The position numbers and the translations under genes were made by a program. From positions 248,001 to 312,000 of the forward strand of contig NZ_JBGCCU010000012.1 in NCBI RefSeq assembly GCF_041261445.1: a stretch of 64,000 bases of DNA, in the 5' to 3' direction. Under the pieces are notes generated by a model. The model had not been told where the DNA came from and did no database searches. It was given only the letters and a program-made list of their open reading frames with translations. The first letter of the stretch is position 1. The number at the start of each line of letters is the position of its first letter. Shown piece by piece: positions 42,931 through 57,557 of the stretch. The DNA is from Catenulispora sp. EB89. Lineage in GTDB: Bacteria > Actinomycetota > Actinomycetes > Streptomycetales > Catenulisporaceae.

Positions 42931-44031
42931 ATGGCCGACGGCGAACTCGCTCCGGCGGCGTTCCCCGAGATCGGTGAGCGTGAGATGGCGCTCTACCGGC
43001 TGTTCCTCCGCAAGGGTCGGCTGACCGTCGACGAGGCGGTGTGCGAGCTCGGCTTGGCCGGCGAGGACGCGACGCGGTCGGTCGAGGTCCTGATCGATCT
43101 GCATCTGCTGCGCGCCGAGCCCGAGCCGGTCGGGGCCGACACCGCCCCGGCCTACCTGCCGGTCCCGCCTTCGATCGCCGCGGCGTATCGGGTCGCGCCG
43201 GTCGAGGCGGATCTGCGGCGGCGGTTGGCCGACGCGGAGCGGGCTCGGGCGCAGCTGCTGATCCTGGACGAGGTGTACGCCGCGGGGCGGCCCTCGGCCG
43301 GATCGCACCGGCTGGACGAGATCCTCGACCTGGCCACCGTTCTGGACCTGATCGAGCGGCTCGCCGTCGGCTGCCGGACCGAGGTGATGACCGTGCAGCC
43401 CGGCGGGCCGCGGGAGCCGGATCAGCTGGAGCAGGCGATCACCCGCGATCTGGCGATGATCGGGCGCGGCGTCCGGATGCGCACGCTGTACCAGCACACC
43501 GCGCGCCTGCACCAGCCGACGCAGGAGTACGTCGCGCGCATCACCGCCGCCGGCGCCGAGGTCCGGACCCGTACCGACCTGTCCGGCCGGATGCTGGTCT
43601 TCGACCGCGAGGTCGCGATCCTGCCGCACCGGCTCAGCCTGGACGGCGCCATCGTGGTCCGCGAGCCGTCGATGGTGTTCTACTTCTGCGGCCTGTTCGA
43701 CCAGTCCTGGTCGTTCGCCGACACCTTCGTCCCGCTGCGCCAGTGGGACAGCGCGCTCGACGACGTCAAACAGGCCGTCGTCCGATTACTCGCCGAGGGC
43801 ATGAAGGACGAGATGATCGCCCGGCGCCTCGGCATGTCGCTGCGCACCTGCCGCAAGCACATCGCCGAGCTGCTGGAAGGGCTCGGCGCCGCCAGCCGCT
43901 TCCAGGCGGGCTACCTGGCCCGGGCGCGGCCCGATCTGGCCGGCCCGCAGCAGCCGGACCAGGGCGCGCAGCAGGCCGGCCCCTGGTTCGAGGCCATGCC
44001 GCCGAATCCCTTGCGGCAGCAGGGGAACTGA
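42931..44031 (+). CDS. LuxR-type regulator with TrmB-like N-terminal domain
   Basis: The 366-residue protein starts at ATG 42931 with GGAGG four bases upstream (the frame extends to 42889). The N-terminal winged helix is 'REMALYRLFLRKGRLTVDEA' followed by 'ATRSVEVLIDLHLLRAEP'. The middle has a phospholipase-D-like/TrmB effector fold ('MIGRGVRMRTLYQHTARLHQ', 'LVFDREVAILPHRLSLDGAI'). The C-terminal LuxR helix-turn-helix is 'LLAEGMKDEMIARRLGMSLR' and 'TCRKHIAELLEGLG'. It lies convergent, one base apart, with the P450 gene that ends the minus-strand RiPP-like operon, so it is a candidate regulator of that cluster. Confidence 0.88.
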   Translation: MADGELAPAAFPEIGEREMALYRLFLRKGRLTVDEAVCELGLAGEDATRSVEVLIDLHLLRAEPEPVGADTAPAYLPVPPSIAAAYRVAPVEADLRRRLADAERARAQLLILDEVYAAGRPSAGSHRLDEILDLATVLDLIERLAVGCRTEVMTVQPGGPREPDQLEQAITRDLAMIGRGVRMRTLYQHTARLHQPTQEYVARITAAGAEVRTRTDLSGRMLVFDREVAILPHRLSLDGAIVVREPSMVFYFCGLFDQSWSFADTFVPLRQWDSALDDVKQAVVRLLAEGMKDEMIARRLGMSLRTCRKHIAELLEGLGAASRFQAGYLARARPDLAGPQQPDQGAQQAGPWFEAMPPNPLRQQGN

Positions 44032-44032
44032 G

Positions 44033-45256
44033 TCAGACAGAACCCTGATGAGGACTCTCGGCGGACGGCCGGGGCCGGACCACCACCGGCAGCGCGCTCA
44101 GCCGCCGATGCTGGAACCCGCCGCTCCACCGCAGCCGCTCCGCCGGCACCGCGAGCCGCAGCTCCGGCCACCGTCGCGCGAGCGCACCGAGCGCCGCCGC
44201 CAGCGTCATCCTGGCCAGCGCCGAGCCGAGGCAGTAGTGCGGTCCTAGGCCGAAACTCAGCTGCCGGTGCCGGGTCGTGCGGTCCAGTCGCAGCTGCTCC
44301 GGCTGGACATGCGCACGGTGGTCGTGGTTCGCCGCCGCCACGGAAAGCAGCACACTGCTGCCCGCCGGGATGACCGTCTCGCCGATCCGCACGTCGCTGA
44401 GCGTGTGCCGGGTCGTCGCGAACGGACCCGGCGTGTCCATCCGCAGCAGCTCGTCCACGGCGCTCGGGATCGATCCGACATCGGCGGCCAGCAGGGCCAG
44501 TCCGCCAGGCTCCGCGGTCAGCGCTAGGACCGCCATCGCCAGCATCTGCACCGTGCTGTCGTATCCGGCCAACAGGAGCATGGCGATCAGATCGAGGAGT
44601 TCTTCGCGGCTCACCGCAGCGGCATCAGGCGCTTCGTTCCCCGCCATCCATGCCCTGATGATCTCCCCGAACACACCAGGCGACGATGTGCCGAGATCGA
44701 CCTGCCGCCGTACATACGAGTCCAAAACCGTGACGGCGGCCTCGCGATCGGCTACTCCATACCCCTGCGAGTCGGCCAGCACGTCGAGCGCCACCCACAG
44801 CTCCGGCCGGTCCGCCGCCGCGATCCCCAACACCTCGCACATCACTCCGAACGCGAACGGCCGCGCGAACTCCGCAACCAGCTCCACGCTGTCGGGACGG
44901 CCGAGCCTGTCCAGGACCTGCTCCGCCAAGGACTCCACGGGCTCCTGCCAAGGCCCGAGCCGTGCCGCCGACAACGCCGGAGCCGCCAACCGCCGTATCC
45001 GCGTGTGATCCGGCGGATCGTAGTTGACCAGCGTCATGTCCAGCGCCCGATGCGGACGGCCGTGGTCGACCGGCTCCCGCGCCAGCGACAGCTGCGGGTT
45101 CAGCAGCGCGGCCCGGACGTCGGCCTCGCGGGTCACCACCCACACCTCCCGCCCCGCCGGTGACGTCGTACGCGCCACCGGACACGATTCACGAAGCTGT
45201 TCCAGCGTGGGATTCGGATCGGCGACGAAGCGCCCGCCGAGCGGTGAGGAAGTCAT
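44033..45256 (-). CDS. cytochrome P450
   Basis: The 407-residue P450 starts at ATG 45256 (GAGGG nine bases upstream). The haem ligand Cys is in 'LSFGLGPHYCLGSALARM', the I-helix is 'LLLAGYDSTVQMLAMAV' (AGxD(S/T)T-like), the K-helix ExxR is in 'AVDELLRMDTPG', and 'NYDPPDHTRIRRLAAPALSA' is the usual C-helix region. It looks like an actinobacterial class I P450 that hydroxylates or couples secondary metabolites, needing a ferredoxin from elsewhere. It is the last gene of the seven-gene operon and starts 12 bases after the GAF gene's stop. In this context a peptide tailoring role is plausible (inference). Confidence 0.93.
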   Translation of the reverse strand: MTSSPLGGRFVADPNPTLEQLRESCPVARTTSPAGREVWVVTREADVRAALLNPQLSLAREPVDHGRPHRALDMTLVNYDPPDHTRIRRLAAPALSAARLGPWQEPVESLAEQVLDRLGRPDSVELVAEFARPFAFGVMCEVLGIAAADRPELWVALDVLADSQGYGVADREAAVTVLDSYVRRQVDLGTSSPGVFGEIIRAWMAGNEAPDAAAVSREELLDLIAMLLLAGYDSTVQMLAMAVLALTAEPGGLALLAADVGSIPSAVDELLRMDTPGPFATTRHTLSDVRIGETVIPAGSSVLLSVAAANHDHRAHVQPEQLRLDRTTRHRQLSFGLGPHYCLGSALARMTLAAALGALARRWPELRLAVPAERLRWSGGFQHRRLSALPVVVRPRPSAESPHQGSV

Positions 45257-45268
45257 CAGAACCAACCC

Positions 45269-45919
45269 TCAGGAATGACCGTCGGTTGCGAGCAGCAGAT
45301 CACGCACCGCGTCGATCAACACCAGCCCCGCCGCCCGGCCCGCCTCGTCGAGCCCCTCGACGGCGCGCACGCCGGCCCGCACCCCGGCCGCCGCCGGACG
45401 TCCGTTCCCCTGCCGCTGCGTCACCAGCCGCAGCGCGCCGGTCGACTGCCGCGCGAACAGCGCGAGCAGGTCGAGCTCGGCCAGGTCCGAGCGCGTCTGC
45501 GGGGCCGGGTCCAGCACCTCCAGGACGCCGAGCACGCCGGTGGCGTCCAGCAGTGGCGCCGCCATCAGCGCGTTGGGGACGTACTCGGTGGACTCGGCCA
45601 GATCGCGCGCGAAACCCTGGTCCTGGCTCAGATCGTCGACGATCATCGGCTCGCCGGACCCGGCCACCCAGCCGGCGATCCCGCGGCCGGCCGGGAACCT
45701 GCGGCCGACCAGGAAGTTCTCGCCCTGCCCGGAGACCGCCTGGAAGACCAGCTCCCCGGCGGCCTCGTCGAGCAGGAAGATGGAGCTCGCGGCGGCGCCG
45801 AAGATCGCGCGGGCGGTGTCCACGATGGACTGGAGCAGTTCCCGCGCCAGCGGGTCGGCCTCGGCCGCACTGCCGGTTGGCCCGGAGCGGTCCGCGACGG
45901 AGTTGTCCGGCTGATTCAT
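45269..45919 (-). CDS. GAF domain protein
   Basis: The 216-residue protein starts at ATG 45919 with AGAGGTG upstream, overlapping the S8 peptidase stop by four bases (ATGA). One GAF domain spans about residues 22-165: 'IVDTARAIFGAAASSIFLLD', 'GELVFQAVSGQGENFLVGRR', 'PAGRGIAGWVAGSGEPMIVD' and 'YVPNALMAAPLLDATGVLGV'. No output domain is attached. It may sense a small molecule and act on a partner in the operon such as the cyclase protein. A C-terminal Ala/Gly/Arg region ends in 'LVLIDAVRDLLLATDG'. Confidence 0.87.
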   Translation of the reverse strand: MNQPDNSVADRSGPTGSAAEADPLARELLQSIVDTARAIFGAAASSIFLLDEAAGELVFQAVSGQGENFLVGRRFPAGRGIAGWVAGSGEPMIVDDLSQDQGFARDLAESTEYVPNALMAAPLLDATGVLGVLEVLDPAPQTRSDLAELDLLALFARQSTGALRLVTQRQGNGRPAAAGVRAGVRAVEGLDEAGRAAGLVLIDAVRDLLLATDGHS

Positions 45920-46776
45920 GCTGCACCTCTGGATGTGACGTTTACGTTGGCTGCCGTCAGATAGAGCACGCTCTTGAGCTGGAACAGGGTCAGGTCCGGA
46001 TGCTTGGCCAGGATCCGCGCGCACGCCCCGGCCACGAACGGGGTGGCGAAGCTGTTGCCGGTGGTGCGGATCGTCTTGCCGCCGAGCCAGGCCACGGAGA
46101 CGTTCTGGCCGGCGGCGAAGAACTCCACCGGCGGTTCGGGGTTGTACAGGTGCAGATCCTGGTCGGACTCCTGGTGGCTGCCGACCGAGAACACCGAGGA
46201 GAACCGCCACGGGAAGCTCTCCACCGGCGTGTTGTGCGCGGAGGCCACCAGCGCGGTGCCGCCGAAGTACGCCTCGTCGGCGAGCTCGTGCAGCGCCTCG
46301 GCGAACCGCGCTCGCGTGGTCGACAGGCTCAGGTTGACCACGTCGAACCGCTGCCGCACGGCCCACCGCAGGCCGGCCAGCAGCACGTCGCCGGTCCCGG
46401 AGAAGCGCTCTCCCAGAACCCTGACACTGTGCAGCTCGCAGTCCGGGGCCAGCCGCCGCACGATGCTGGCGCAGGCCGTGCCGTGGCCGCAGGTGTCGCC
46501 GGTCTCGGTCGGCTCGACCCGGAACTCCCCGCCGTCGCCGACCACCACCCAGGAGCCGTCCACCGGCCCGACGCCCGGATGGTCCCGCTCGACGCCGCTG
46601 TCCACGACGCACACCCGCACCCCGCGCCCGGTCGAACCGCCCCAAGCCCAGTCCGGCGTGACCTCGATCCCGTCCGCGGTCAGGGCGATGTCGTCCGGCG
46701 CGCGCCCACGCAGGCTCCAGGTCAAGCGCGCCGGATCGGTGTGGCTGCGCGGCGACGCGATGGTGTCGGTGGTCAT
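45916..46776 (-). CDS. cytosolic S8 (subtilisin-like) serine peptidase
   Basis: The 286-residue protein has the complete subtilase triad: Asp59 in 'GVRVCVVDSGVERDHPGVG', His98 in 'GDTCGHGTACASIVRR', and Ser in 'TTGNSFATPFVAGACARIL'. The oxyanion-site Asn, expected between them, aligns with 'ALVASAHNTPVESFPW'. There is no signal peptide and no propeptide, so it should act inside the cell. Its start overlaps the cyclase stop and its stop overlaps the GAF start (ATGA each). In a cluster with a small precursor-like peptide and two radical SAM enzymes, a leader-peptidase role is the best guess. Confidence 0.9.
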   Translation of the reverse strand: MTTDTIASPRSHTDPARLTWSLRGRAPDDIALTADGIEVTPDWAWGGSTGRGVRVCVVDSGVERDHPGVGPVDGSWVVVGDGGEFRVEPTETGDTCGHGTACASIVRRLAPDCELHSVRVLGERFSGTGDVLLAGLRWAVRQRFDVVNLSLSTTRARFAEALHELADEAYFGGTALVASAHNTPVESFPWRFSSVFSVGSHQESDQDLHLYNPEPPVEFFAAGQNVSVAWLGGKTIRTTGNSFATPFVAGACARILAKHPDLTLFQLKSVLYLTAANVNVTSRGAA

Positions 46777-49700
46777 GTGGTCGGCCTTCCTGCGCGAACT
46801 TCGACGTCGATCGGGCTGTGGTCGGCGAGGTCCAGCAGCTGCTCCGCGCAGCGCGTCCCCGGCCGATGCCCCTTGGCGGCGAACTGGTCCCGCGCCGAGC
46901 ACGCGGCTTCCAGCGCCTCCGACGCCCGATCCGAAGCCTGCGCGCAGCGGGCCAGGTCGAGCGCCGCGGTGGCCTGAAGCACCGGCGAATCGGCGGCGCG
47001 GGCATCGAGGACCGCACGCCGAGCCAGATCCAGCGCGTGGCCCGGATCCGTGTCCATCACCACCCGCGCCAACAGCCCTCGAAGATCGACGGCGTCCTCC
47101 AGCGGCAGCGAGTCGACGGCTTCGACCGGCTCGGAATCCCGTTTCAACAGCAGGGCTTTCGCGTCCTCGACGCGTCCGGCGTCCAGCAGCACACGAGCCC
47201 GGGCCCGCCGCAGCTGAGCCGCCGCCTGGCTCCCGCCGAGCCGGTCGGCGGCCGACTCGGCCTGCCGGAGCAGCATGTCAGCCTCCTGCGGACGCCCGGC
47301 CAGCGACGCGACGGTTGCCCGGAAGAAGGGCAGGAAGACGGACGTCTCCGCGTACCCGGCGGCCCGCGCGAACTCGTCGGCGGCGTCCAGACAGGCCAAG
47401 GCCGCGTCGGGCCGGTCGTCGAAGGCGAGCAGCACCGCCAGCGGGCAGTTGAGCGTGATCTGCACGATGCGCCGCACGCCGTGCCGCGCCAGCAGTCCCC
47501 GGCACCGCGCCACGGCCTCGGCGACCGGCGTCGGCCCGGCCGACAGCGAGACCCCGAGCGCGCCGAGGACGGCCGCGCGTTCGGGCTCCGCGCCGGCCCG
47601 CACAGCGTGTTCGGCAGCGCTGAGCAGCAGTTGCTCGGCCTGGCCGTGCCGCCCCAGCGTCTGCCGGGCTTGCGCGATCCGCAACCGGGATCTGGCCTGG
47701 CCGAGTTCGTCGCCCTCGGCGGTGAACACTGCGCTCACCTCTTCGGCGACGCGTGCCGTACCGACCGGATCGGCGTCCGCGCCGTGCACGGCCAGCGCCA
47801 GCCGAGCATGCGCACGCACCAAGTTCGGAGCGGACGGCTCGGCGACGACCTCCGCCAGCAGGGCCCTGCCTTCGTCGAGACTTCCTCCGGCCACCAGCAC
47901 CTCGGCCAGCTGCCATAGCACCTGCGGACGCTGCTCGTCCGCGGGCTCGCTCAGCGCCGTGGCCCGGCGCAGCAGCGGCTCGGCCCAGCCGAGGTCGGCA
48001 CGGGCCAAGGCCCGCGAACCGGCTGCGGCCAGGGTGATCATCGCCCGCGAGCGCAGCAGCTCGGTGCGGCCGTCGGCCAGTCCGAGCTCGGTCCGGTAGC
48101 GATGCGCCAGCTCCCAGTGCGCCCCGGCCTCGTGGTCCGCGGCCCGCGCGGCCACGAGCAGCCCGGCCGCGCGCTCGTGCCGGTCCGCCCTGATCCGCTT
48201 GGCAGTGCGCTGATACGACACCTCCTGGACCAGACCGCTGGTGAAGCGCATACTGCCGCTGGCGGCCTCGATCATCCGGCGGCCGGCCAGCCCGCACAGG
48301 GCCCGGCCGGTCATGTCAGCGCTCTCCGGTCCGGTCTGCAGGTCGCCGCCCGGCGCCCCCTCGGGCCCGGACCGGGCCAGACCGGCGACCCGGTCCGGCG
48401 TGAACTCGCGACCGAGGACGGCGGCCAAGGAGAGTGCGGCGCGCTCGGCCGCGCCGAGGGCGTCGATCTGTACGCCGAGCAGCGCCTGGATCGTCGACGG
48501 CAGGCCTTCGGAGCTGCCGGGTTCCGCAGGATCGGCGACCGCGAGCAGATGCTCCAACAGCAGCGGATTGCCTTCCGCCCGGTCGAGGATCCGGGCCGGC
48601 AACTGTCGCGGCGCGGCGTATTCGCGTTCTGCGTAAGCCGTCGCCAGACGTACACACTCCGCCCTCGGCAGGGGAGGGAGCGTGAGGCATTCGTGCTCTG
48701 ATCCCGGCGCGGACCAACCGGCTCCGGCCTCCAACAACTCGGGACGTCCGGCGCAGACCAGCAGCAACGGGAAGTCGGCGGCCAGCGCCGAAAGGCGTTC
48801 GACCGTGGCCCGCAGCGCCGGGCGCGACCAGTGGAAGTCATCGAGCACCAGGACCAGCGGCCCGGCGGCGGTCAGGTGGCGCAGCACCACGCCGAGTGAG
48901 GCGCAGGTGTCCTCGATCGACGGATCGGGGGTGCCGTCGCGCAGCATCCCGACCTCCAGCAGGGCCAGCGCGTCGGTCACCGGCCCGGGCCAGGCGGTTC
49001 CCGGTTCGGCGCGGACACCGTCCAGCAGCGCCGACACGGCTTCGGCCAGCGCCGTCAGGCTTCCGCTGTCGGTGAGCGGACGGCAGCGACCGACGCCGGA
49101 GCGGGTCCGACGCGACGGTTCCCGGTCCAGCCATTCCCGCAGCAGCCTGGTCTTGCCCAGGCCTGCCTCGGCGGTCAGAGTCAGCACTCTGACACGACGC
49201 TCGGCGGTCGTCGCACGCAAGGCTTGGTCCAGCGCGGCGAACTGGTCCTCGCGCCCCACGAACGGTAGATCGAACCGGCGCAACAGCCCCGGGTCGTCGC
49301 CGCGCAGGGCGGTCAACCGATAGGCGTGCACCGGCTCGGTCTTCCCGCGCAGGCTCATCGGCCCCGCGTCCTGTGCCTCCACCGCCGCGGACACCGCGCG
49401 CCGCGTCTCGGCGTCGATCAGGATCTCGCCGGGGGCCGCGTTCTGCTCCAGCCGGGCCGCCACGTTGGCCACCTCGCCGGAGATGAGCACCTGCCGCTCG
49501 TCGGAGTCGGTGCCGACCACGGCCTCGCCGGTGCCGATGCCGATTCGCACGGCCAGCCGCACGCCGAGCGCGCTGTGCAGCTCCTCGTTCAGCCGGTGCA
49601 GGACGTCCGGGATCTCCAGCGCCGCGGCGACCGCGCGCAGCGCGTCGTCCTCGTGCAGGCCCGGGATGCCGAACACGGCCATGACCGCGTCCCCGATGAA

Positions 49701-49997
49701 CTTCTCCACGGTGCCGCCGCGCGCCTCGATCGGGGCGCGCACGGCCGCGAAGTAGCGCAGGATCACCGAGCGCAGCGTCTCGGGGTCGAGCCGCCCGGAC
49801 AGCGCGGTCGAGCCGACCAGGTCGCAGAACAGCACGGTGACCGGTCGGCGCTCCTCGGCCGACGGGGTCGGGACGGACAGCGCCGGGGCCGGGGCGGGCG
49901 TCGCCGTCGCAGCGCACGGCGTACCGCAGTTCATGCAGAAGCGGGCGCTGTCGGGCAGCGTTTCAGAGCATGCGGCGCAGTGCACTGCCTTCCTCAC
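46773..49997 (-). CDS. class III nucleotide cyclase fused to STAND ATPase and TPR-like domain
   Basis: The 1074-residue protein starts at GTG 49997. A zinc ribbon opens it (C7-x2-C10 and C21-x2-C24). A class III cyclase domain follows (about 50-225) with metal-binding 'VTVLFCDLVGSTALSG', 'GGTVEKFIGDAVMAVFGIPG' and the transition-state region 'SGEVANVAARLEQNAAPG', all looking catalytically competent. The ATPase has Walker A-like 'LTAEAGLGKTRLLREW' and Walker B 'LVLVLDDFHWSRPALR'. The rest is TPR-like helices. This architecture is common in actinobacteria, where its signal and cyclic nucleotide product are unknown. Its place in the middle of a peptide-modification operon, with four-base overlap to the peptidase gene, is unusual. 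Confidence 0.9.
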   Translation of the reverse strand: MRKAVHCAACSETLPDSARFCMNCGTPCAATATPAPAPALSVPTPSAEERRPVTVLFCDLVGSTALSGRLDPETLRSVILRYFAAVRAPIEARGGTVEKFIGDAVMAVFGIPGLHEDDALRAVAAALEIPDVLHRLNEELHSALGVRLAVRIGIGTGEAVVGTDSDERQVLISGEVANVAARLEQNAAPGEILIDAETRRAVSAAVEAQDAGPMSLRGKTEPVHAYRLTALRGDDPGLLRRFDLPFVGREDQFAALDQALRATTAERRVRVLTLTAEAGLGKTRLLREWLDREPSRRTRSGVGRCRPLTDSGSLTALAEAVSALLDGVRAEPGTAWPGPVTDALALLEVGMLRDGTPDPSIEDTCASLGVVLRHLTAAGPLVLVLDDFHWSRPALRATVERLSALAADFPLLLVCAGRPELLEAGAGWSAPGSEHECLTLPPLPRAECVRLATAYAEREYAAPRQLPARILDRAEGNPLLLEHLLAVADPAEPGSSEGLPSTIQALLGVQIDALGAAERAALSLAAVLGREFTPDRVAGLARSGPEGAPGGDLQTGPESADMTGRALCGLAGRRMIEAASGSMRFTSGLVQEVSYQRTAKRIRADRHERAAGLLVAARAADHEAGAHWELAHRYRTELGLADGRTELLRSRAMITLAAAGSRALARADLGWAEPLLRRATALSEPADEQRPQVLWQLAEVLVAGGSLDEGRALLAEVVAEPSAPNLVRAHARLALAVHGADADPVGTARVAEEVSAVFTAEGDELGQARSRLRIAQARQTLGRHGQAEQLLLSAAEHAVRAGAEPERAAVLGALGVSLSAGPTPVAEAVARCRGLLARHGVRRIVQITLNCPLAVLLAFDDRPDAALACLDAADEFARAAGYAETSVFLPFFRATVASLAGRPQEADMLLRQAESAADRLGGSQAAAQLRRARARVLLDAGRVEDAKALLLKRDSEPVEAVDSLPLEDAVDLRGLLARVVMDTDPGHALDLARRAVLDARAADSPVLQATAALDLARCAQASDRASEALEAACSARDQFAAKGHRPGTRCAEQLLDLADHSPIDVEVRAGRPTT

Positions 49998-50028: not shown

Positions 50029-50241
50029 TCAGAACAGCGCGCCGCCGGCGATGTTGGTGTGCGCCTGGACCTCGGGTTCGAGCTCGTCGAGCCGAGTCTT
50101 GAGATCCACCAGCAGATCCAGCTCCTGGGGGGACAGCGAACCGAGGACCACGACCTGCTCCTCGCTCAGCGTGTCCAAGGGGAATCCGGCCGCGGCGAGC
50201 GCGGTCAGCGCGGGGTTGGCGGGGCTGTCGGAGTCGTTCAT
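50029..50241 (-). CDS. 70-residue RiPP-precursor-like peptide
   Basis: The product starts at ATG 50241 with GGAGG five bases upstream, overlapping the previous gene's stop (ATGA). It has an acidic leader-like N-terminus with 'LTALAAAGFPLDTLSEEQ' and 'SPQELDLLVDLKTRLDEL', then 'EPEVQAHTNIAGGALF' as the C-terminus. There is no signal peptide. The run 'EPEVQAHT' matches 'EPEVVAHS', which opens every repeat of the precursor at 52406. It lies directly downstream of a radical SAM and a haem-oxygenase-fold gene. I infer a ribosomally made, modified peptide with the core after the EPEV motif. I vaguely recall a named domain for such tiny proteins in radical SAM clusters but cannot confirm it. Confidence 0.75.
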   Translation of the reverse strand: MNDSDSPANPALTALAAAGFPLDTLSEEQVVVLGSLSPQELDLLVDLKTRLDELEPEVQAHTNIAGGALF

Positions 50242-50960
50242 CGGGTCCTCCACAAATCGGTGGTTCTGAGGTCGGACGAAGGTGAGTCGGTGGCATCCGG
50301 TGACAGTTCCCTGATCAACTCGGTCAGCGCACCGATCGTGTGCAGCGCGCTGACACCGATCGCGGCGTCCTGGGCCCGGCTCAGCGGCAGGTCGTCCAGC
50401 AGCTCGTCGAGCTGACTGGTGTGGCCGCCGTCGAGTTCGGCGTGCGCGCGGACGGTACGGAAGGCCTCGGTCGGCAGCCCGGTGTCCAGGGCGAGTCGGT
50501 CGGCCAGCCAGACAGCCGGCGCGCGGCTTTCGAGCACTGCGATGTACCCGAGCAGCGTCGCCGGGTGTCCGTGTTCGATCCAGTAGTACTGCGGGCCGAC
50601 CAGGCGCGCCGCCGCGAGACCCGCCGACGGCTCCGGCACGCCGTTGCTGCCGTGCATCACGGCGAGGTCGTCCAGCAGCCACAGGTCGTGGCCGCGTTCC
50701 TCGTCGATGTGCTCGACCAGGTAGTCGTGCAGGCGCGCGGCGAGCGGATCCGCCGCCCCGCGCTCGGCGCAGCGTCGGGCCGCGAGGTCCATGAGCGGTA
50801 CCGAGGCGCGGATCACCTGATGCATGGCAGCGAGGTAGCGGCCGTAGCGGAGGACGAGGCCGTCTGGCCTCCAGAGGCGATCCAGCGCGGCGTTCAGGGC
50901 GTGGTCCGCGAGGGAGATCTTGACGTGCAACATATCGCTGCGCGAGAGCGTGGCGGTCAT
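50238..50960 (-). CDS. haem-oxygenase-fold iron enzyme (TenA/PqqC/HDO-like)
   Basis: The 240-residue all-helical protein starts at ATG 50960, overlapping the radical SAM stop by four bases. Candidate metal ligands are in 'YLVEHIDEERGHDLWLLDDL' (Glu/His on one helix) and 'VRAHAELDGGHTSQLDELL' (His-x-x-x-Asp-x-x-His), the pattern of haem-oxygenase-like diiron oxidases and related iron-containing redox enzymes. Such enzymes cleave or oxidise amino-acid side chains in several natural-product pathways. It sits between a radical SAM enzyme and a precursor-like peptide, so the peptide is the probable substrate (inference). Nothing in the sequence decides between oxidase and non-catalytic scaffold. 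Confidence 0.8.
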   Translation of the reverse strand: MTATLSRSDMLHVKISLADHALNAALDRLWRPDGLVLRYGRYLAAMHQVIRASVPLMDLAARRCAERGAADPLAARLHDYLVEHIDEERGHDLWLLDDLAVMHGSNGVPEPSAGLAAARLVGPQYYWIEHGHPATLLGYIAVLESRAPAVWLADRLALDTGLPTEAFRTVRAHAELDGGHTSQLDELLDDLPLSRAQDAAIGVSALHTIGALTELIRELSPDATDSPSSDLRTTDLWRTR

Positions 50961-52063
50961 CGTGTGTCTCCCGGGGCCACCAGCTCGGCATACTTGGCGC
51001 AGCCGAATCGCCGCACCAGCGTGACCGGACCGGATTCGGCCTGCGTGGCAGTGGCGTGCCGGTCCAGCAGCTCTCCGGCCGGACCGGCGCCGAAAGCGCG
51101 GATCGCCGGCAAGTCAGTGCTCTGTGGGAGCGCGATGCAGGCCGTGCAGTAGTCGTCCGAGCCCGCGCTGCCGTTGCCGAACCGGGAGCGCAGATGCAGC
51201 GGACCCAGGGCCCTGATCATCCGCACCTCGGGCGAGTTCATGGCCCGCTCGCGCAGCGTCGGCCAGTCGTCGTCGGCGATGTGGCCGAGCAGGAGATGCT
51301 CCGGTGCCGGCCTCAGATCCACGGTGTCCTGACCGCAGCAGGCCAGGACCGTGCCGTCGGAGGCCACCACGGGCCAGGCGGCCATGGCGCAGGGCAGCAC
51401 GCGCGCCGGATCCTGTGCTCTGTCCGAGGAATCCGGTGCCCCCTCCGGCCCGGCGACGATCCGCGCGGCCGCGGCCCAGGACGCCGCCCGGCCCACCGCG
51501 CGCACCTCGTTCACCAGCATCGGAACCCGGTTCCCGAACCTGCGCCGAACCTCTTCGGTGACGTCGGCCAGGTAGGGATCGTCGGGGCCGTGGCCGGTCA
51601 GGTGCAGGCTCACGGCCATGCCGTCGTCGAGCAGCGTGGACAGCGTCCGCAGCACCTCGGCCCTGGGCACCTCGCGCTCGTGCTCGCGGTCCAGGCTCGC
51701 CGAGAAGTGGTCCACGGCGTGGATCGCCTTACGAATATGCCTCGGGAAGCGTCCCTGGCGTGCGAAGAACATCCCGCTGAGCAGTGCCGTGCGGACACCC
51801 CGGTCCGCGGCAGCCTGGGCCAGTTCGGTCACGAGGCCCGGCCGCAGCAGCGGCTCACCGCCGGTGAACATCACCAGCTCCGGCCGGTCCTGCGGGCCGA
51901 AGGACTCGACCAGCCGGCGCAGCGCGGCGCCGTCCAGCTGGGGCCCGGTCATCGTGGACGCGGTGGAGCAGTGCGCACAGTGCAGCGGGCAGCGCTGAGT
52001 CAGCATCAGCAGGACGCCGGCGCACGGCACCGGACGCAGGCTGATCAGTTCGGCCAGTTCCAC
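50957..52063 (-). CDS. radical SAM enzyme with extra C-terminal cysteines (SPASM-like)
   Basis: The 368-residue protein has the radical SAM cluster motif C25-x3-C29-x2-C32 ('MLTQRCPLHCAHCSTAS'), the SAM-binding 'ELVMFTGGEPLLRP', and later cysteines: 'LPCAMAAW', 'VLACCGQD', 'DDYCTACIALP' and 'RRFGCAKYAE', consistent with one or two auxiliary Fe-S clusters as in SPASM/twitch enzymes that modify peptides. It is the first gene of the minus-strand operon and faces the repeat precursor gene across a 342-base promoter region. The reaction is unknown; crosslink or epimerisation on the 70-residue peptide is plausible. Confidence 0.9.
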   Translation of the reverse strand: MELAELISLRPVPCAGVLLMLTQRCPLHCAHCSTASTMTGPQLDGAALRRLVESFGPQDRPELVMFTGGEPLLRPGLVTELAQAAADRGVRTALLSGMFFARQGRFPRHIRKAIHAVDHFSASLDREHEREVPRAEVLRTLSTLLDDGMAVSLHLTGHGPDDPYLADVTEEVRRRFGNRVPMLVNEVRAVGRAASWAAAARIVAGPEGAPDSSDRAQDPARVLPCAMAAWPVVASDGTVLACCGQDTVDLRPAPEHLLLGHIADDDWPTLRERAMNSPEVRMIRALGPLHLRSRFGNGSAGSDDYCTACIALPQSTDLPAIRAFGAGPAGELLDRHATATQAESGPVTLVRRFGCAKYAELVAPGDTR

Positions 52064-52405: not shown

Positions 52406-52747
52406 ATGGCCAAGAAGCGCGATCTGGAGAACGAGCCCGAAGTCGTCGCCCACTCGGGTGAGGACACCCCGTGGTGTGGCGTGAACGTCAACACCAACGC
52501 CACCGAGGACGAGCCGGAGGTCATCGCGCACTCCGGTGAGGACACGCCGTGGTGTGGCGTGAACGTCGGTACCGCCGCGACCGAGGACGAGCCCGAAGTC
52601 GTCGCACACTCCGGCGAGGACACCCCCTGGTGTGGCGTGAACGTCGGCACTGCCGCGACCGAGGACGAGCCCGAGGTCATTGCGCACTCCGGTGAGGACA
52701 CCCCCTGGTGCGGCATCAACGTCGGCACCGCCGCCACCGAGGACTGA
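52406..52747 (+). CDS. multi-core RiPP precursor with four 26-residue repeats (AmcA-like)
   Basis: The 113-residue protein starts at ATG 52406 with GGAG six bases upstream. It is nine residues (MAKKRDLEN) plus exactly four copies of a 26-residue unit: EPEV(V/I)AHSGEDTPWCG, then (V/I)NV(G/N)T(A/N)ATED. Each copy has one His, one Trp and one Cys at fixed positions and is strongly acidic. The next gene is a radical SAM/SPASM maturase. I recall a family of multiple-cyclophane precursors (AmcA) paired with a maturase (AmcB) of this kind, and this pair probably belongs there; the exact match was not tested. There is no export signal, and the nine-residue leader implies that the recognition element lies within each repeat. 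Confidence 0.88.
   Translation: MAKKRDLENEPEVVAHSGEDTPWCGVNVNTNATEDEPEVIAHSGEDTPWCGVNVGTAATEDEPEVVAHSGEDTPWCGVNVGTAATEDEPEVIAHSGEDTPWCGINVGTAATED
52433..52744 (+). repeat. four tandem 78-bp coding repeats
   Basis: Units are 52433-52510, 52511-52588, 52589-52666 and 52667-52744. They differ mostly at third codon positions (for example GTCGTCGCC, GTCATCGCG and GTCGTCGCA in the EVxAH segment), while protein differences are limited to V/I swaps and two positions in the first unit. Old duplications kept under selection at the protein level would give this pattern. Confidence 0.92.
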
Positions 52748-52874
52748 TGACGCCCCGCACCACCGTCTGACGCACCATCGGCTGACGACCACCGTCCCGA
52801 GCCGGTCGGCCGCGGTGCTGCTCCGCCGGGCAGCACCACGGCCGACTGGCCCGATCCTTCCGACAGGAGGCACC

Positions 52875-54077
52875 ATGCTCCGGACCATGAGCCCGGAACC
52901 GCTCGCCGCGGACGCTCCCTCGCGCCTGCTCCCGGCCCGGCAGGGCTGGTGGTTCGTCAGCGAGGGCGGCTCGGCCCGGCTCCACACCGCGCAGGTCGAC
53001 CCGGACGGCACCGTCGTGCCGGCCACCCTGGACCGGCTGCGCGCGGCGGGCCTGATGCGCCGGCGCCCGCCGAGCAGCTACTCCCTCACGGTGCTGACCA
53101 GCACCGACTGCAATCTCGGCTGCGGCTACTGTTTCCAGAACATCGAGCAGGACCCGCGCGGGGGAGCCCGGCCGCCGCGCATCGCGCACGCCCGGCTCAA
53201 GCCGGACACCACCACCGCGATCCTCGACTTCACCCGCGCCCGGATGGCCGAGGCCGGGCTGGACAAGCTCGCCCTGATGCTGTTCGGCGGGGAGCCGCTG
53301 CTGAACCTGCGCGGCGCCGTGGACCTGCTGGAGCGCGCCGCCGAGCTCGGCGAGATGACCGTGTCCATGACCTCCAACGGCACGCTGCTCACGCCGCTGG
53401 TCATCAGGACCCTGCACGACGCCGGCCTGGGCTCGGTCCAGCTCACCTTCGACGGCGACCGGGACGAGCACGACGCGATCCGCGTCACCCGCTCCGGCGG
53501 GCCGACCTTCGACCGGATCGTCGACAACGCCGCGCAGGCGATGAGCGCCGCGCCGGACGTGAAGTGGCACCTGCGGGTCAACGTCTCGCACCACAACCGG
53601 CGCGGCATCGACGCCCTGGTGGAGCGGCTGGCCGAGCGGCTGGACACCGCCCGCTGCGGGATCCAGTTCGCGCTGGTCGGCGACGTGGGCGTCGGCTACG
53701 GCAACGAGCTCGACTACGGCGGCGCGCTGGCCGCCGACTTCACCCGCTGGCACCACGCGGCGCACCGGCACGGCTTCACGCTGACCCGCCCGCGCTCCGG
53801 CAAGGGCTGCCAGGCCTGCGAGCACCCCGACGGCCAGTACGGCGCGGTGGTCAGCGCCGACGGCTCGCTGTCCAGCTGCTGGGAGACGGCCGGCCGGCCG
53901 GAGTGGACCGTCGGCGACGTCGACGCGGGCTACCTGTCCGGCGAGCACGTCGAGGGCCGCTGGATCACCTGCACCGACCAGTACCGGCACGGCGAGAACG
54001 CGCCGGCCCTGGCGGCCTTCCAGGACCAGGTCGACGCCGAACTGCTCGATCTTCTGCACACGGCCGGACGGGTCTGA
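52875..54077 (+). CDS. radical SAM/SPASM peptide maturase (AmcB-like)
   Basis: The 400-residue protein starts at ATG 52875 with AGGAGG four bases upstream. Radical SAM ligands are C79-x3-C83-x2-C86 ('LTSTDCNLGCGYCFQNIEQ'), followed by 'ALMLFGGEPLLNL', 'MTSNGTLLTP' and 'VQLTFDGDRDEHDAI'. The SPASM region has 'GKGCQACEHPDGQYGAVVS', 'GSLSSCWETAG' and 'WITCTDQYRHG'. Enzymes of this type install crosslinks such as cyclophanes or thioethers in repeated core peptides. The upstream repeat gene is the obvious substrate. The N-terminal 70 residues are likely a peptide-binding region, though not a recognised RRE. Confidence 0.92.
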   Translation: MLRTMSPEPLAADAPSRLLPARQGWWFVSEGGSARLHTAQVDPDGTVVPATLDRLRAAGLMRRRPPSSYSLTVLTSTDCNLGCGYCFQNIEQDPRGGARPPRIAHARLKPDTTTAILDFTRARMAEAGLDKLALMLFGGEPLLNLRGAVDLLERAAELGEMTVSMTSNGTLLTPLVIRTLHDAGLGSVQLTFDGDRDEHDAIRVTRSGGPTFDRIVDNAAQAMSAAPDVKWHLRVNVSHHNRRGIDALVERLAERLDTARCGIQFALVGDVGVGYGNELDYGGALAADFTRWHHAAHRHGFTLTRPRSGKGCQACEHPDGQYGAVVSADGSLSSCWETAGRPEWTVGDVDAGYLSGEHVEGRWITCTDQYRHGENAPALAAFQDQVDAELLDLLHTAGRV

Positions 54078-54108
54078 GCCCCGCCCGACCCCTCGGAGGT
54101 GGACACAC

Positions 54109-55437
54109 ATGACCGGCACCGCCGGCACCGGAATCCTGCGCGAGAACCGGGACTTCCGCCGCTACTGGACCGGCTCGACACTGTCGACGCTGGGTTCGCA
54201 GATGTCTCTGATCGCCTTCCCGCTGCTGGTCCTCTCGCTCGGCCAGGGCGCCGCGCGGGCCGGGCTGGTGGCCACCTTCTCCCTGGTCACCCGGCTGGCG
54301 CTGCGGCTGCCGGCCGGCGGCCTGGCCGACCGCGCGGACCGGCGGCGGCTGATGCTGGGCGCCGACCTGGTCCGGCTGGTGGCGCTCGGCAGCATTCCGC
54401 TGGCCGCGGGACTCGGGGTACTGGGCTATCCGCAGCTGCTCGGGGTCGCGATCGTCGAGGGCTGCGCGACGGCGGTGTTCGGGCCGGCGAGCCGGATCGC
54501 GGTTCGGGACGTGGTCTCCGACGATCAGCTCTCTGATGCGCTGGCGAAGGAACAGGCCGCGATGGGGACCGCCACGTTGGTGGGTCCGTTCCTGGGCGGC
54601 TGGCTGTTCGCCGTGGACCGGATCCTGCCGTTCACCGCTGATGCGATGTCGTACGCGGTCTCGGCGATTCTGTTGCTGCGTATGGCCACCCGGCCGCGAG
54701 CTGCCGACCCGGTGTCCGCGCGGGCCGCTGGCGGCGGGTTGGCCGGCGTGCGCTGGCTGGCGCGTCGGCCGGCGTTGCTCAGGGCTCTGCTTTTCGGCTC
54801 GCTGCTCAACTTGGGTGGGGCCGCGGCTGAGGTGGCCGTGGTGGTGACGTTGCGCGAACAGCACGCTGCGGGGCCGGTGATCGGGCTGGTGATGGCGTGC
54901 GCCGGGGCGGGTGCTGTGCTCGGGGCTTTGGCGGCGCCGCGTGTGCTCGCGTTGTTGGAACCCGGTCCGTTGTTCCTGGCGGTGGGGGTGATCTGGACGT
55001 TCGGCTTCATCGCGTTCGCGGTCGAGCCGACGCCGCTGGTGGTCGGTCCGGTGCTGGTGCTGCTGGTCTTCCTCACGCCGCCGGCCGGGATCCTGGTCGG
55101 GCAGGCGCTGCTCACCGAGTCGCCGCGGGAGCTGCTGGGCCGGGTCTCGACCGCGGCCGACTTTCTGATGGCTGGGCTGGCTTCGCTGGGTCCGGCGGCG
55201 GCAGGGCTGTTGCTGCAGGACGCGGGGATCGGGCGGACGTGGGTGGCGCTGGCGGTGTTGATCGCCGCCGGGACGGTGGTCGCGGCGGTGCCGCTGCTGC
55301 GGGGTGGGTCGCTGTCGGCGGTGGTGGAGGCTGTGGTCCCGGTGCTGGAGCCGGATCTTGTGCTGCACTCGGATCCGGCTGCGGGGATGGAATCAGGACT
55401 CGATGATGGCGGACCTGGTTCATTGGAGGCGACATGA
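54109..55437 (+). CDS. MFS exporter (EntS-like) of the RiPP cluster
   Basis: The 442-residue protein starts at ATG 54109 with GGAGG nine bases upstream. It opens 'NRDFRRYWTGSTLSTLGSQM', typical of MFS exporters of the EntS/MFS_3 group, and has the loop motif 'PAGGLADRADRRRLMLGADL'. About ten to twelve helices can be drawn. It lies 31 bases after the maturase and overlaps the peptidase gene (ATGA), so it is probably the exporter of the finished peptide. Confidence 0.9.
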   Translation: MTGTAGTGILRENRDFRRYWTGSTLSTLGSQMSLIAFPLLVLSLGQGAARAGLVATFSLVTRLALRLPAGGLADRADRRRLMLGADLVRLVALGSIPLAAGLGVLGYPQLLGVAIVEGCATAVFGPASRIAVRDVVSDDQLSDALAKEQAAMGTATLVGPFLGGWLFAVDRILPFTADAMSYAVSAILLLRMATRPRAADPVSARAAGGGLAGVRWLARRPALLRALLFGSLLNLGGAAAEVAVVVTLREQHAAGPVIGLVMACAGAGAVLGALAAPRVLALLEPGPLFLAVGVIWTFGFIAFAVEPTPLVVGPVLVLLVFLTPPAGILVGQALLTESPRELLGRVSTAADFLMAGLASLGPAAAGLLLQDAGIGRTWVALAVLIAAGTVVAAVPLLRGGSLSAVVEAVVPVLEPDLVLHSDPAAGMESGLDDGGPGSLEAT

Positions 55438-57557
55438 GTGTCCTGAATGAGCATGCTGAGGTCGCTGTGGGGAGCTATCCGCCGGCTCCGCGGACCGGCC
55501 CGGTCGAGGCGCTGCACGGCATCCCGGTCGCGGATCCGTATCGGTGGCTGGAGGACGAGTCCGATCCGGCCACTACAGCGTGGAGCGCTGCTCAGGAGGA
55601 GCTGTACGCGGCGCGTCGGGGCGGCTGGGCCCTGCTGGAACCGATGCGCCGACGCATCGCGGACCTGCTGGACGTCGGGTCGGTCAGTGCTCCGGTCGCG
55701 CGCGGGGGAAGGCTGTTCGACACTTTGCGCGAGCCGGGTCGTGACCAGATGGCGTTGCGAGTCACCGATGCCCGGGGGAGTGGCGCGCGGATTTTGTGGG
55801 ATCCGCTCGTCCAGGATCCGAGCGGGCTGACGGTGCTGGAGTGCTGGGAGCCGTCTTCGGACGGGTCGTTGGTCGCTGTGCAGTACTCGGCGGCCGGGAC
55901 CGAGGACACGCTGCTCGTGGTGCTCGACGTGGCGAGTGGTCGGGTGGTGGACGGGCCGATCGACCGGCTGCGGCGGTGCGACGTCGCGTGGCTGGCGGAC
56001 TCCAGCGGCTTCTACTACGCGCGGCGGCGGCCGCCGGAGGAGATCCCCGGCGAGGAGCGCTATCACCGCCGGGTTCGGCTGCATCGACTCGGTGCCGACC
56101 CGGAGACGGACGCGGTGGTGTTCGGCGAGGGTCGGGCCATGGACGACTTCTATACGCCGAGGCTTTCCGCCGACGGCCGTTGGCTGACCGTTGCGGTGAC
56201 GCGTGGCGCGGATCCGGCGACCGAGCTGTGGCTGGCGGATCTCGCAGCTTCCGGTCCCGAGGCGCCAATGCTGCGCCGGGTGGTCGGATCCGGTGCAGCA
56301 CGCATGGATCTGGTCATTCCCGCTGGTACCGAGCCGCAGGACACGGCTTACCTCATCACCTTCCAGGACGCGCCGAACGGTCGGCTGGAAGCTGTCCGCC
56401 CTGCCGCACTCCTCGCGCCCGAACCTGACTCACAGCCTGTCGTCCTTGTCGCTGAGGATCCCGAGGCGGTGCTGACCGAGGTCGCCGTGCTCGACGGCCG
56501 GCTGCTCGTCACGCGCGTGCGCCATGCCGTCTCCGAGATCACCGTCCACGATCCGCACACCGGAGTCCAGGTCGACCAGCTGTCCCTTCCAGGCCCGGGG
56601 ACGGTCGGCACGGTGCGCACGGCGCCCGACGGCCGCGAGGCGTGGTTCGGCTACACCGACCACATCACTCCCATCAGTGTGCTGCGTTACGACGTGCGCT
56701 CCGATGCGCGCTCCGGCTCGGTCGCACCGTGGGCCGCCGCGCCGGGAACCCCGGTCATCGAGGGCTGCGTCGTGCGCCGGGTGCGGTTCCCCTCCCACGA
56801 CGGCACGCTCGTCACGGCCTTCGTGCTGTCTCCGACCGGGCACCCCGACCGCCCGCGTCCGACGGTGATCAGCGGCTACGGCGGGTTCGGCGCGTCGATC
56901 GTCCCCGGTTGGGCGCCACAGGCCCTCGCCTGGGTCGAGCGCGGCGGCGTGTTCGTGTTCGCGTGCCTTCGCGGCGGCGGCGAGGAAGGCCAGGCCTGGC
57001 ACGACGCCGGACGCCGTGCCGCCAAGCAGAACACCTTCGACGACCTCGACGCCGCCGCCGACTGGCTCATCGCCGACGGATGGACCGACCCCGCGCGCCT
57101 GGGCCTGCTCGGCAGCTCCAACGGCGGCCTGACCGTCGCGGCGGCGATGACACAGCACCCTGAGAAGTACGCGGCCGTCGTCGCCGTCAGCCCCCTGCTC
57201 GACATGGTGCGCTACGAGGCCTCCGGCATGGGCCCGAGCTGGCGCGAGGAGTACGGCACGGCCGCGGACCCCGACGACCTCGCCGTCCTGCACGCCTACT
57301 CGCCGTACCACCGCGTCCGCGAGGGGGCGCGCTACCCGGCCGTCCTGCTCGCCGTTGCCGACGGCGACACCCGCGTGAGCCCGCTGCACGCCCGCAAGAT
57401 GTGCGCCGCGCTGCAACACGCGTCCGCGGGCCCCGGCCCGATCCTGCTCCGCCTGGAGCGCGGTGTCGGCCACGGGGCCCGCGGCATCGGCGCGACGGTC
57501 GAGCTTTTCGCCGACGTCATGGTGTTCCTCGCGGAACACCTCGCCCTGACTATGTGA
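55434..57557 (+). CDS. prolyl oligopeptidase family (S9A) serine peptidase
   Basis: The 707-residue protein has the S9A layout: a short N-terminal helix segment with 'VADPYRWLEDESDPATTAW', a seven-bladed propeller, and a hydrolase domain with nucleophile Ser562 in 'LGLLGSSNGGLTVAAAM', Asp in 'VADGDTRVSPLHARKM' and His in 'ERGVGHGARG'. 'LRGGGEEGQAWHDAGRR' is also diagnostic. No signal peptide is present, so it acts in the cytoplasm on peptides small enough to enter the propeller. Each precursor repeat contains Glu-Pro and Thr-Pro bonds, so it is a likely candidate for cutting the modified repeats apart (inference). Confidence 0.93.
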   Translation: MSVLNEHAEVAVGSYPPAPRTGPVEALHGIPVADPYRWLEDESDPATTAWSAAQEELYAARRGGWALLEPMRRRIADLLDVGSVSAPVARGGRLFDTLREPGRDQMALRVTDARGSGARILWDPLVQDPSGLTVLECWEPSSDGSLVAVQYSAAGTEDTLLVVLDVASGRVVDGPIDRLRRCDVAWLADSSGFYYARRRPPEEIPGEERYHRRVRLHRLGADPETDAVVFGEGRAMDDFYTPRLSADGRWLTVAVTRGADPATELWLADLAASGPEAPMLRRVVGSGAARMDLVIPAGTEPQDTAYLITFQDAPNGRLEAVRPAALLAPEPDSQPVVLVAEDPEAVLTEVAVLDGRLLVTRVRHAVSEITVHDPHTGVQVDQLSLPGPGTVGTVRTAPDGREAWFGYTDHITPISVLRYDVRSDARSGSVAPWAAAPGTPVIEGCVVRRVRFPSHDGTLVTAFVLSPTGHPDRPRPTVISGYGGFGASIVPGWAPQALAWVERGGVFVFACLRGGGEEGQAWHDAGRRAAKQNTFDDLDAAADWLIADGWTDPARLGLLGSSNGGLTVAAAMTQHPEKYAAVVAVSPLLDMVRYEASGMGPSWREEYGTAADPDDLAVLHAYSPYHRVREGARYPAVLLAVADGDTRVSPLHARKMCAALQHASAGPGPILLRLERGVGHGARGIGATVELFADVMVFLAEHLALTM

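Follow-up and report, generated by a model that had tools for sequence, protein, structure and literature searches.

The window analyzed here, a 64,000-nt stretch of Catenulispora sp. EB89 (positions 248,001–312,000 of contig NZ_JBGCCU010000012.1), carries a gene cluster for a ribosomally synthesized and post-translationally modified peptide (RiPP), whose precursor contains four fused repeat units and is followed by genes for a radical S-adenosylmethionine (SAM) maturase, an exporter and a prolyl oligopeptidase. Comparison with the precursors situated beside related maturases suggests that the constant target of these enzymes is a Cys residue and not the Trp that precedes it in the window. We give about an even chance to the maturase joining this Cys, through a thioether, to the β-carbon of the residue three positions downstream (+3), once per unit.

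The repeat precursor and its putative operon

52406..52747, + strand: multicore precursor of 113 aa (9 + 4 × 26 residues), from the translation of the open reading frame (ORF) and its relatives
52433..52510, + strand: unit 1, EPEVVAHSGEDTPWCGVNVNTNATED
52511..52588, + strand: unit 2, EPEVIAHSGEDTPWCGVNVGTAATED
52589..52666, + strand: unit 3, EPEVVAHSGEDTPWCGVNVGTAATED
52667..52744, + strand: unit 4, EPEVIAHSGEDTPWCGINVGTAATED
52875..54077, + strand: radical SAM maturase, 400 aa (PF04055, 59.1 bits)
54109..55437, + strand: major facilitator superfamily (MFS) exporter (PF05977, 83.2 bits; PF07690, 77.5 bits)
55434..57557, + strand: prolyl oligopeptidase (S9), candidate for separating the units

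Translation and Pfam matches confirmed the arrangement put forward in the original prediction, namely a precursor of nine residues (MAKKRDLEN) plus four units of exactly 26 residues, accompanied by a radical SAM maturase and an exporter. The precursor ORF has a third-position GC of 0.88, with the sequence GGAG situated 7–10 bases upstream of its ATG. Each unit reads as a mini-leader, EPEV(V/I)AH, followed by a core, PWCG(V/I)N. In pairwise comparisons the units are 83–88 % identical in DNA and share 22–25 of their 26 residues, with mainly silent changes (synonymous and nonsynonymous divergence, dS and dN, of 0.43–0.63 and 0.017–0.117, respectively), which argues for selection on the peptide sequence and against a fresh duplication of the DNA. 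The unit duplications are thus old, and selection has since maintained the peptide.

The precursor and maturase genes are separated by 127 bases and those of the maturase and exporter by 31, while the exporter and prolyl oligopeptidase genes overlap by 4; since the four lie on the same strand, their transcription as a single unit is plausible. The genes that the original prediction assigned to the cluster stand, but not its end at position 55437, because the prolyl oligopeptidase gene overlaps that of the exporter. The cluster also has more genes upstream. Repeated cores, maturase, protease and exporter occur together here and are kept in other species. A scan of GTDB identified three close named maturase loci, from Catenulispora pinisilvae (L031), C. 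pinistramenti (L032) and Streptomyces montanisoli (L033). The order precursor-maturase-exporter recurs, with diverged repeat precursors, in L031 and L033, and L034 carries the same repeat-precursor ORF as L031; the precursor of L032 was not seen because the contig starts 37 bases before the maturase gene.

At E ≤ 0.01, the repeat precursor matched only two unrelated families, far under their cut-offs, and had no match to the StsA-related sactipeptide precursor model NF045559 or to the aroma-sacti domain NF045560. No description of this maturase and precursor family appeared in the titles or abstract openings of the literature found, and the accessible portions of PMC12710340 and PMC9062424 contain nothing on it.

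Elements shared by the precursors of related maturases

Precursors were sought as short ORFs with a ribosome binding site in 50 wide maturase loci (the window, L033 and fetched stretches), 43 of which yielded 57 precursor genes, 53 of them unique. The seven loci without a precursor comprise L035, L073, L085 and L086, each situated at the end of a contig or on a short one (3.1–5.5 kb), and L071, L072 and L074, with distant maturases (41, 35 and 27 % identity). Loci L049 and L050, whose maturase is 41 % identical to that of the window, are included in the 43 and excluded from the P450 and neighbor-gene counts below; the latter thus refer to 41 loci, and are lower bounds because the fetched stretches are of unequal length.

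All 53 unique precursors contain Cys and 49 contain an (E/D)(V/I/L/T)xAH motif and, as judged from their sequences, these are the constant elements of precursors beside related maturases. In a control with 176 short coding-like ORFs from 815 kb, motif and Cys coincided in 53 of 57 precursors and in 0 of 119 other ORFs, a result that is partly circular because the motif helped to pick many of the precursors. The motif was found without Cys in 18 more short ORFs, 17 of them aroma-sacti-type precursors and one chance-like.

The context of the Cys is C-x-hydrophobic-(N/H/Y/F), with one of these four residues at +3 in 76 of 83 sites; at other positions they appear in 1/83 (−1), 1/83 (+1), 3/83 (+2) and 17/82 (+4) sites. 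There were 46 distinct contexts, in which the +3 residue is N (17), Y (10), H (8), F (5) or another (six). Trp directly precedes Cys in the four units of the window and at 41 of the 85 Cys sites of the whole set, and is present in 25 unique precursors and absent from 28; moreover, 12 of the 53 lack Phe, Trp and Tyr altogether, their maturases being 54–59 % identical to that of the window. A single Cys is present in 36 of the unique precursors.

The commonest form among relatives is a single-core gene, which can occur in tandem (five genes in L041, eight in L102). There are three fused cores in L036–L040 and four in L033 and the window, whereas L034 has four plus a fifth partial one lacking its own motif. 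Four designs are found within one family, namely a full-leader gene (L104, see below), a short-leader gene, a tandem array of eight genes (L102) and a fusion of four repeats (window), making the rise of multicore RiPPs testable. The tandem genes of L102 (8518–10180, − strand) are situated before one maturase gene, and seven of their cores read WCG(V/I)(H/Y) and one WCGLL. In addition, two other genomes from the genus of the window contain a 32-aa precursor ending in APCDVCRW (L049, 9373–9471; L050, 9288–9386) beside the 41 % identical maturase; it differs in having EVEIY, no AH motif and two Cys, and this pair is possibly a further branch.

The maturase

The maturase contains a C79-x3-C83-x2-C86 motif plus C312, C315, C335 and C366, all of them invariant in 16 of 16 aligned members. 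It matched 55 NCBIfam models, of which the best 25 were considered, and scored under the cut-off in all 25. Among the matches listed, the best was CefB (NF038107), with 100.9 bits of a cut-off of 600, while TIGR04463 reached 100.4 bits (cut-off 525), both aligning to residues 63–350; PapB (NF047865) scored 74.1 bits (cut-off 340). With scores below the curated cut-offs, the maturase is not a member of the CefB or TIGR04463 families, nor of the curated ranthipeptide maturases of the PapB model, and the window precursors, unlike those of CefB and TIGR04463, are not Cys-rich. Further matches listed include geopeptide, FlmE/OhkG and CcpM models and, at lower scores, those of QhpD and SCIFF maturases, which form thioethers; RumMC reached 34 bits. 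The original prediction had considered that the maturase might cluster with SPASM proteins that do not modify peptides, and this was not found, the best matches being CefB, TIGR04463, geopeptide and PapB. A sequence search of the PDB gave four distant radical SAM proteins, with E 2.9e-07 for the best of them.

Both a thioether-forming radical SAM model, QhpD, and a small subtilase model, QhpE, match window proteins. QhpD modifies an enzyme subunit, whereas the window has short peptides with an exporter; again neither score reaches its cut-off, and the subtilase resembles mycosins just as much.

Among 391 genomes of the order, 32 contain the maturase (E ≤ 1e-20); by an alignment search at E ≤ 1e-40 it was found in 6/14 genomes of the family, 9/394 of the class and 12/345 of another order of the same class; these genome sets overlap.

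A proposed thioether ring

In the mechanism that we propose, the maturase would dock on the motif of each unit and abstract a hydrogen from the residue three positions after Cys (Asn in the window; His, Tyr or Phe in relatives), which would then be joined to the Cys sulfur. The product would contain one C-x-x-N thioether ring per unit, spanning C-G-V-N in the window, with a change of −2 Da per unit. The β-carbon is favored as the linked atom because Asn, His, Tyr and Phe all have an sp2 carbon next to it; so does Asp, the acceptor of PapB. The units would be released by the prolyl oligopeptidase, cutting after Pro in EP|E or TP|W, by the subtilase or by both, and then exported by the MFS protein. 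If true, the ring motif C-x-x-N/H/Y/F would be broader in its acceptors than the known ranthipeptide motifs.

The Streptococcus ranthipeptide NxxcA contains, according to PMC8326336, a β-thioether between Cys23 and Asn20. As with the NxxcA/NxxcB pair, the window combines a radical SAM enzyme with Asn and Cys two residues apart and would yield a β-carbon thioether; it differs in the reversed order (Cys-x-x-Asn), in the His, Tyr or Phe that replace Asn in relatives, and in its motif-bearing repeats, the likeness being drawn from the published description of the pair. PapB forms CX3D rings with Asp as acceptor, as described in PMC9413430, and the window would share with PapA/PapB (freyrasin) several Cys rings per precursor and a Cys ahead of its acceptor, together with the match to the PapB model. 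It would differ in its acceptor at +3 instead of +4, and it has one Cys plus a motif per unit and a score of 74.1 bits of 340.

Several observations weigh against this chemistry. We infer every ring, in the window and in relatives alike, from sequence; the +3 residue is a different one in 7 of 83 Cys sites; and CX3D is also present in L051–L053, so the acceptor may differ there. The scores of the best models lie far under their curated cut-offs (100.9 of 600 for CefB, 74.1 of 340 for PapB), and the maturase matches cyclophane families too, with YhhB (58.7 bits) falling between QhpD and SCIFF, and FxsB at 49.7 bits. Only two of 16 members showed a match to SPASM in Pfam, and a weak one, while no RiPP recognition element family was listed by Pfam for these 16 members at E ≤ 10, HMMER filters dropping most weak matches. 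The AlphaFold2 model, run on four sequences, was too poor to judge (mean predicted local distance difference test score, pLDDT, of 53.9). Phe, Tyr and His are not known as ranthipeptide acceptors.

The same genes could instead make a sactipeptide, with the Cys sulfur linked to the α-carbon of the +3 or another residue. Such a link would tolerate the chemically mixed side chains found at +3 (N, H, Y, F), and the leader seems derived from a domain whose NCBIfam name refers to sactipeptide clusters; nevertheless, the closest models are not named as sactipeptide maturases (RumMC, 34 bits, versus 100.9 for CefB and 74.1 for PapB) and the +3 position is restricted and not free, so that we consider this product unlikely. 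An invariant Cys is by itself no proof of a thioether, and the enzyme might modify the +3 residue or its neighbors without Cys, for instance by epimerization, leaving Cys for another purpose such as a disulfide. This appears improbable to us, because an internal disulfide is excluded in the 36 of 53 unique precursors with one Cys, and several of the best-matching maturase models correspond to Cys-directed maturases.

The original prediction had considered a chemistry centered on Trp, possibly as a cyclophane from Trp to Asn or one that uses His or Cys, and possibly a variant of the AmcA/AmcB type. A three-residue cyclophane involves an aromatic core residue and a residue bearing a β-carbon at +2. 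All four units read W-C-G, which does not fit this scheme; the prediction had correctly reasoned that the Gly two after Trp offers no β-carbon. A wider Trp-centered ring would agree with the Trp before Cys in the four units and at 41 of 85 sites, and with the YhhB and FxsB cyclophane families among the maturase matches. However, Trp is missing from 28 of 53 precursors and 12 have no aromatic Phe, Trp or Tyr, beside maturases of 54–59 % identity, which rules out a Trp cyclophane as the reaction common to the family. The search of RiPP family models did not uphold the kinship either: the precursor had no AmcA match at E ≤ 0.01 and AmcB was not among the 25 listed of 55 maturase matches, in a library whose holding of AmcA/AmcB models is unconfirmed. 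Overall, we regard a Trp-centered cyclophane in the window as very improbable.

The probable recognition motif and its proposed origin

The role in recognition that the original prediction ascribed to EPEV(V/I)AH is probably right, since 49 of the 53 unique precursors contain the motif, including single-core ones, in whose leaders (E/D)VxAH lies 8–20 residues ahead of the first Cys. Its location inside each unit also holds, but the claim that recognition must lie there is softened by some cores of L034 and L052 that have no motif of their own; in three of the four L052 precursors the first core has no preceding motif, and first cores of this locus mostly precede the motif.

Locus L104 contains a Cys core behind a full aroma-sacti leader (NF045560, 44.2 bits, cut-off 30), with a maturase of the same family. 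This leader ends in PEVLAHSEEGGEDTPC, and its counterpart in the window is PEVIAHSGEDTPWC; against the StsA-related model NF045559 the L104 precursor scored 41.1 bits (cut-off 75), and its branch in the tree is long (0.87). Most simply, EPEVxAH would be what is left of a full aroma-sacti-type leader, namely its end, a direction of change that we infer; the repeat precursor of the window, unlike aroma-sacti leaders, keeps only the last residues, and this short remnant would have been copied into every unit. If true, it would be a portable docking tag of ca. 7 residues, working once per repeat.

Alternatively, EPEVxAH could be a protease site, the maturase reading the core alone: a second precursor in the window (50029–50241), which has a radical SAM protein of its own, carries EPEVxAH as well, and a shared protease could read it. 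We find this unlikely, because proteases are not universal (prolyl oligopeptidase matches in 33 and subtilase, S8, matches in 20 of the 41 loci), and because the common descent of the leader, as seen in L104, explains why both precursors have the motif. Moreover, the motif is kept in L052 (3/4 precursors), L053 (1/1) and L099 (1/1), with no match to either protease in the fetched stretches, which leaves the maturase as the constant partner of the motif.

The two Pro of each unit, in EP|E and TP|W, suit a prolyl oligopeptidase, whereas several single-core relatives with this gene, L042 among them, lack Pro downstream of the motif; its role as the releasing protease is a guess. The DSG, GHGT and GNSFATP stretches of the subtilase look intact by eye; against its likeness to QhpE counts that it is as close to mycosins.

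Cytochrome P450 and DUF6895 genes

A P450 at least 44 % identical to that of the window, a line drawn after inspecting the matches, is encoded by 12 of the 14 genomes with a Trp-Cys precursor and by 0 of the 27 searched genomes without one (Fisher p 1.2e-08, kinship ignored), three of the latter (G310, G287 and G751) having matches of 38–40 %. For many genomes 44 candidates were scored; the search did not include G003 and G011, the precursor of G009, a genome with the P450, was not seen, and the P450 of L033 is on the same contig, just beyond the fetched locus. The tree shows three P450 changes, and of four independent pairs two are concordant, none discordant and two without a P450 change. 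Because changes on the tree are few, the apparent tracking of Trp in the core by the P450 is only a lead, under which the enzyme would act on this Trp.

The two exceptions with a Trp-Cys precursor and no P450, L048 and L099, have DUF6895 genes instead, and both types of genes occur together in 0 of 41 loci. In L043, L045 and L046, whose cores read C(I/V)xN, the maturase gene is flanked by two genes of a single cluster, assigned by Pfam to DUF6895 in the members scanned. Core differences can be paired with partner genes, P450 with Trp and DUF6895 with C-x-x-N cores.

Taken as a whole, a tentative and rather doubtful picture would be that of a maturase family, below the cut-off of all 25 NCBIfam models listed for it, reading a leader-remnant tag of 5–7 residues copied into every repeat and forming C-x-hydrophobic-(N/H/Y/F) rings at the β-carbons of four different side chains, four rings per precursor, followed by a second, Trp-based modification by the P450 that would yield a compact W-C-G-V-N/H product.

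Neighboring genes and a second RiPP set

50957..52063, − strand: second radical SAM protein, divergent
50238..50960, − strand: heme-oxygenase-like iron enzyme (PF14518, 29.8 bits, cut-off 28.9)
50029..50241, − strand: aroma-sacti-type precursor ending in LDELEPEVQAHTNIAGGALF, with EPEVxAH in common with the repeats (NF045560, 72 bits, cut-off 30)
46773..49997, − strand: nucleotide cyclase/AAA protein, probably regulatory
45916..46776, − strand: small subtilase, closest in NCBIfam to QhpE (104.7 bits, cut-off 165) and mycosin (103.7 bits, cut-off 278.75)
45269..45919, − strand: GAF-domain protein, 216 aa (58 % tblastn match to a Pfam-typed GAF protein of L036)
44033..45256, − strand: cytochrome P450, whose close relatives accompany Trp-bearing cores
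42931..44031, + strand: LuxR-type regulator, possible cluster regulator
40438..42294, + strand: SARP/BTAD-type regulator, with relatives in 25 of 41 loci

Besides the proteases and the SARP-type regulator, genes for the cyclase/AAA protein (32 of 41 loci) and for a window-like MFS protein (21) recur near related maturases. A glycosyltransferase gene is present in 36 of the 41 loci, with no match in the 38–62 kb region of the window.

The region 50029–52063 (− strand) groups the precursor, which ends in EPEVQAHTNIAGGALF and has no Cys, with the second radical SAM protein and the heme-oxygenase-like enzyme. This trio was found in at least 18 of 41 loci, the radical SAM gene lying 0.6–3.3 kb from the maturase gene. 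The end AGGALF is found in 16 of 17 listed aroma-sacti-type precursors, and the L104 precursor ends in IIGGLLF.

Loci L096, L100, L101, L102 and L103 have no match to the second radical SAM protein, and contain aroma-sacti-like peptides of 68–70 aa (L100, 9123–9335; L101, 6939–7145; L102, 10372–10584; L103, 7258–7470; L096, 1990–2202). They end in EVEG(H/Q)(E/D)LKL(V/I), with nothing after it as a core, and are perhaps leader-only helpers or the precursors of another product.

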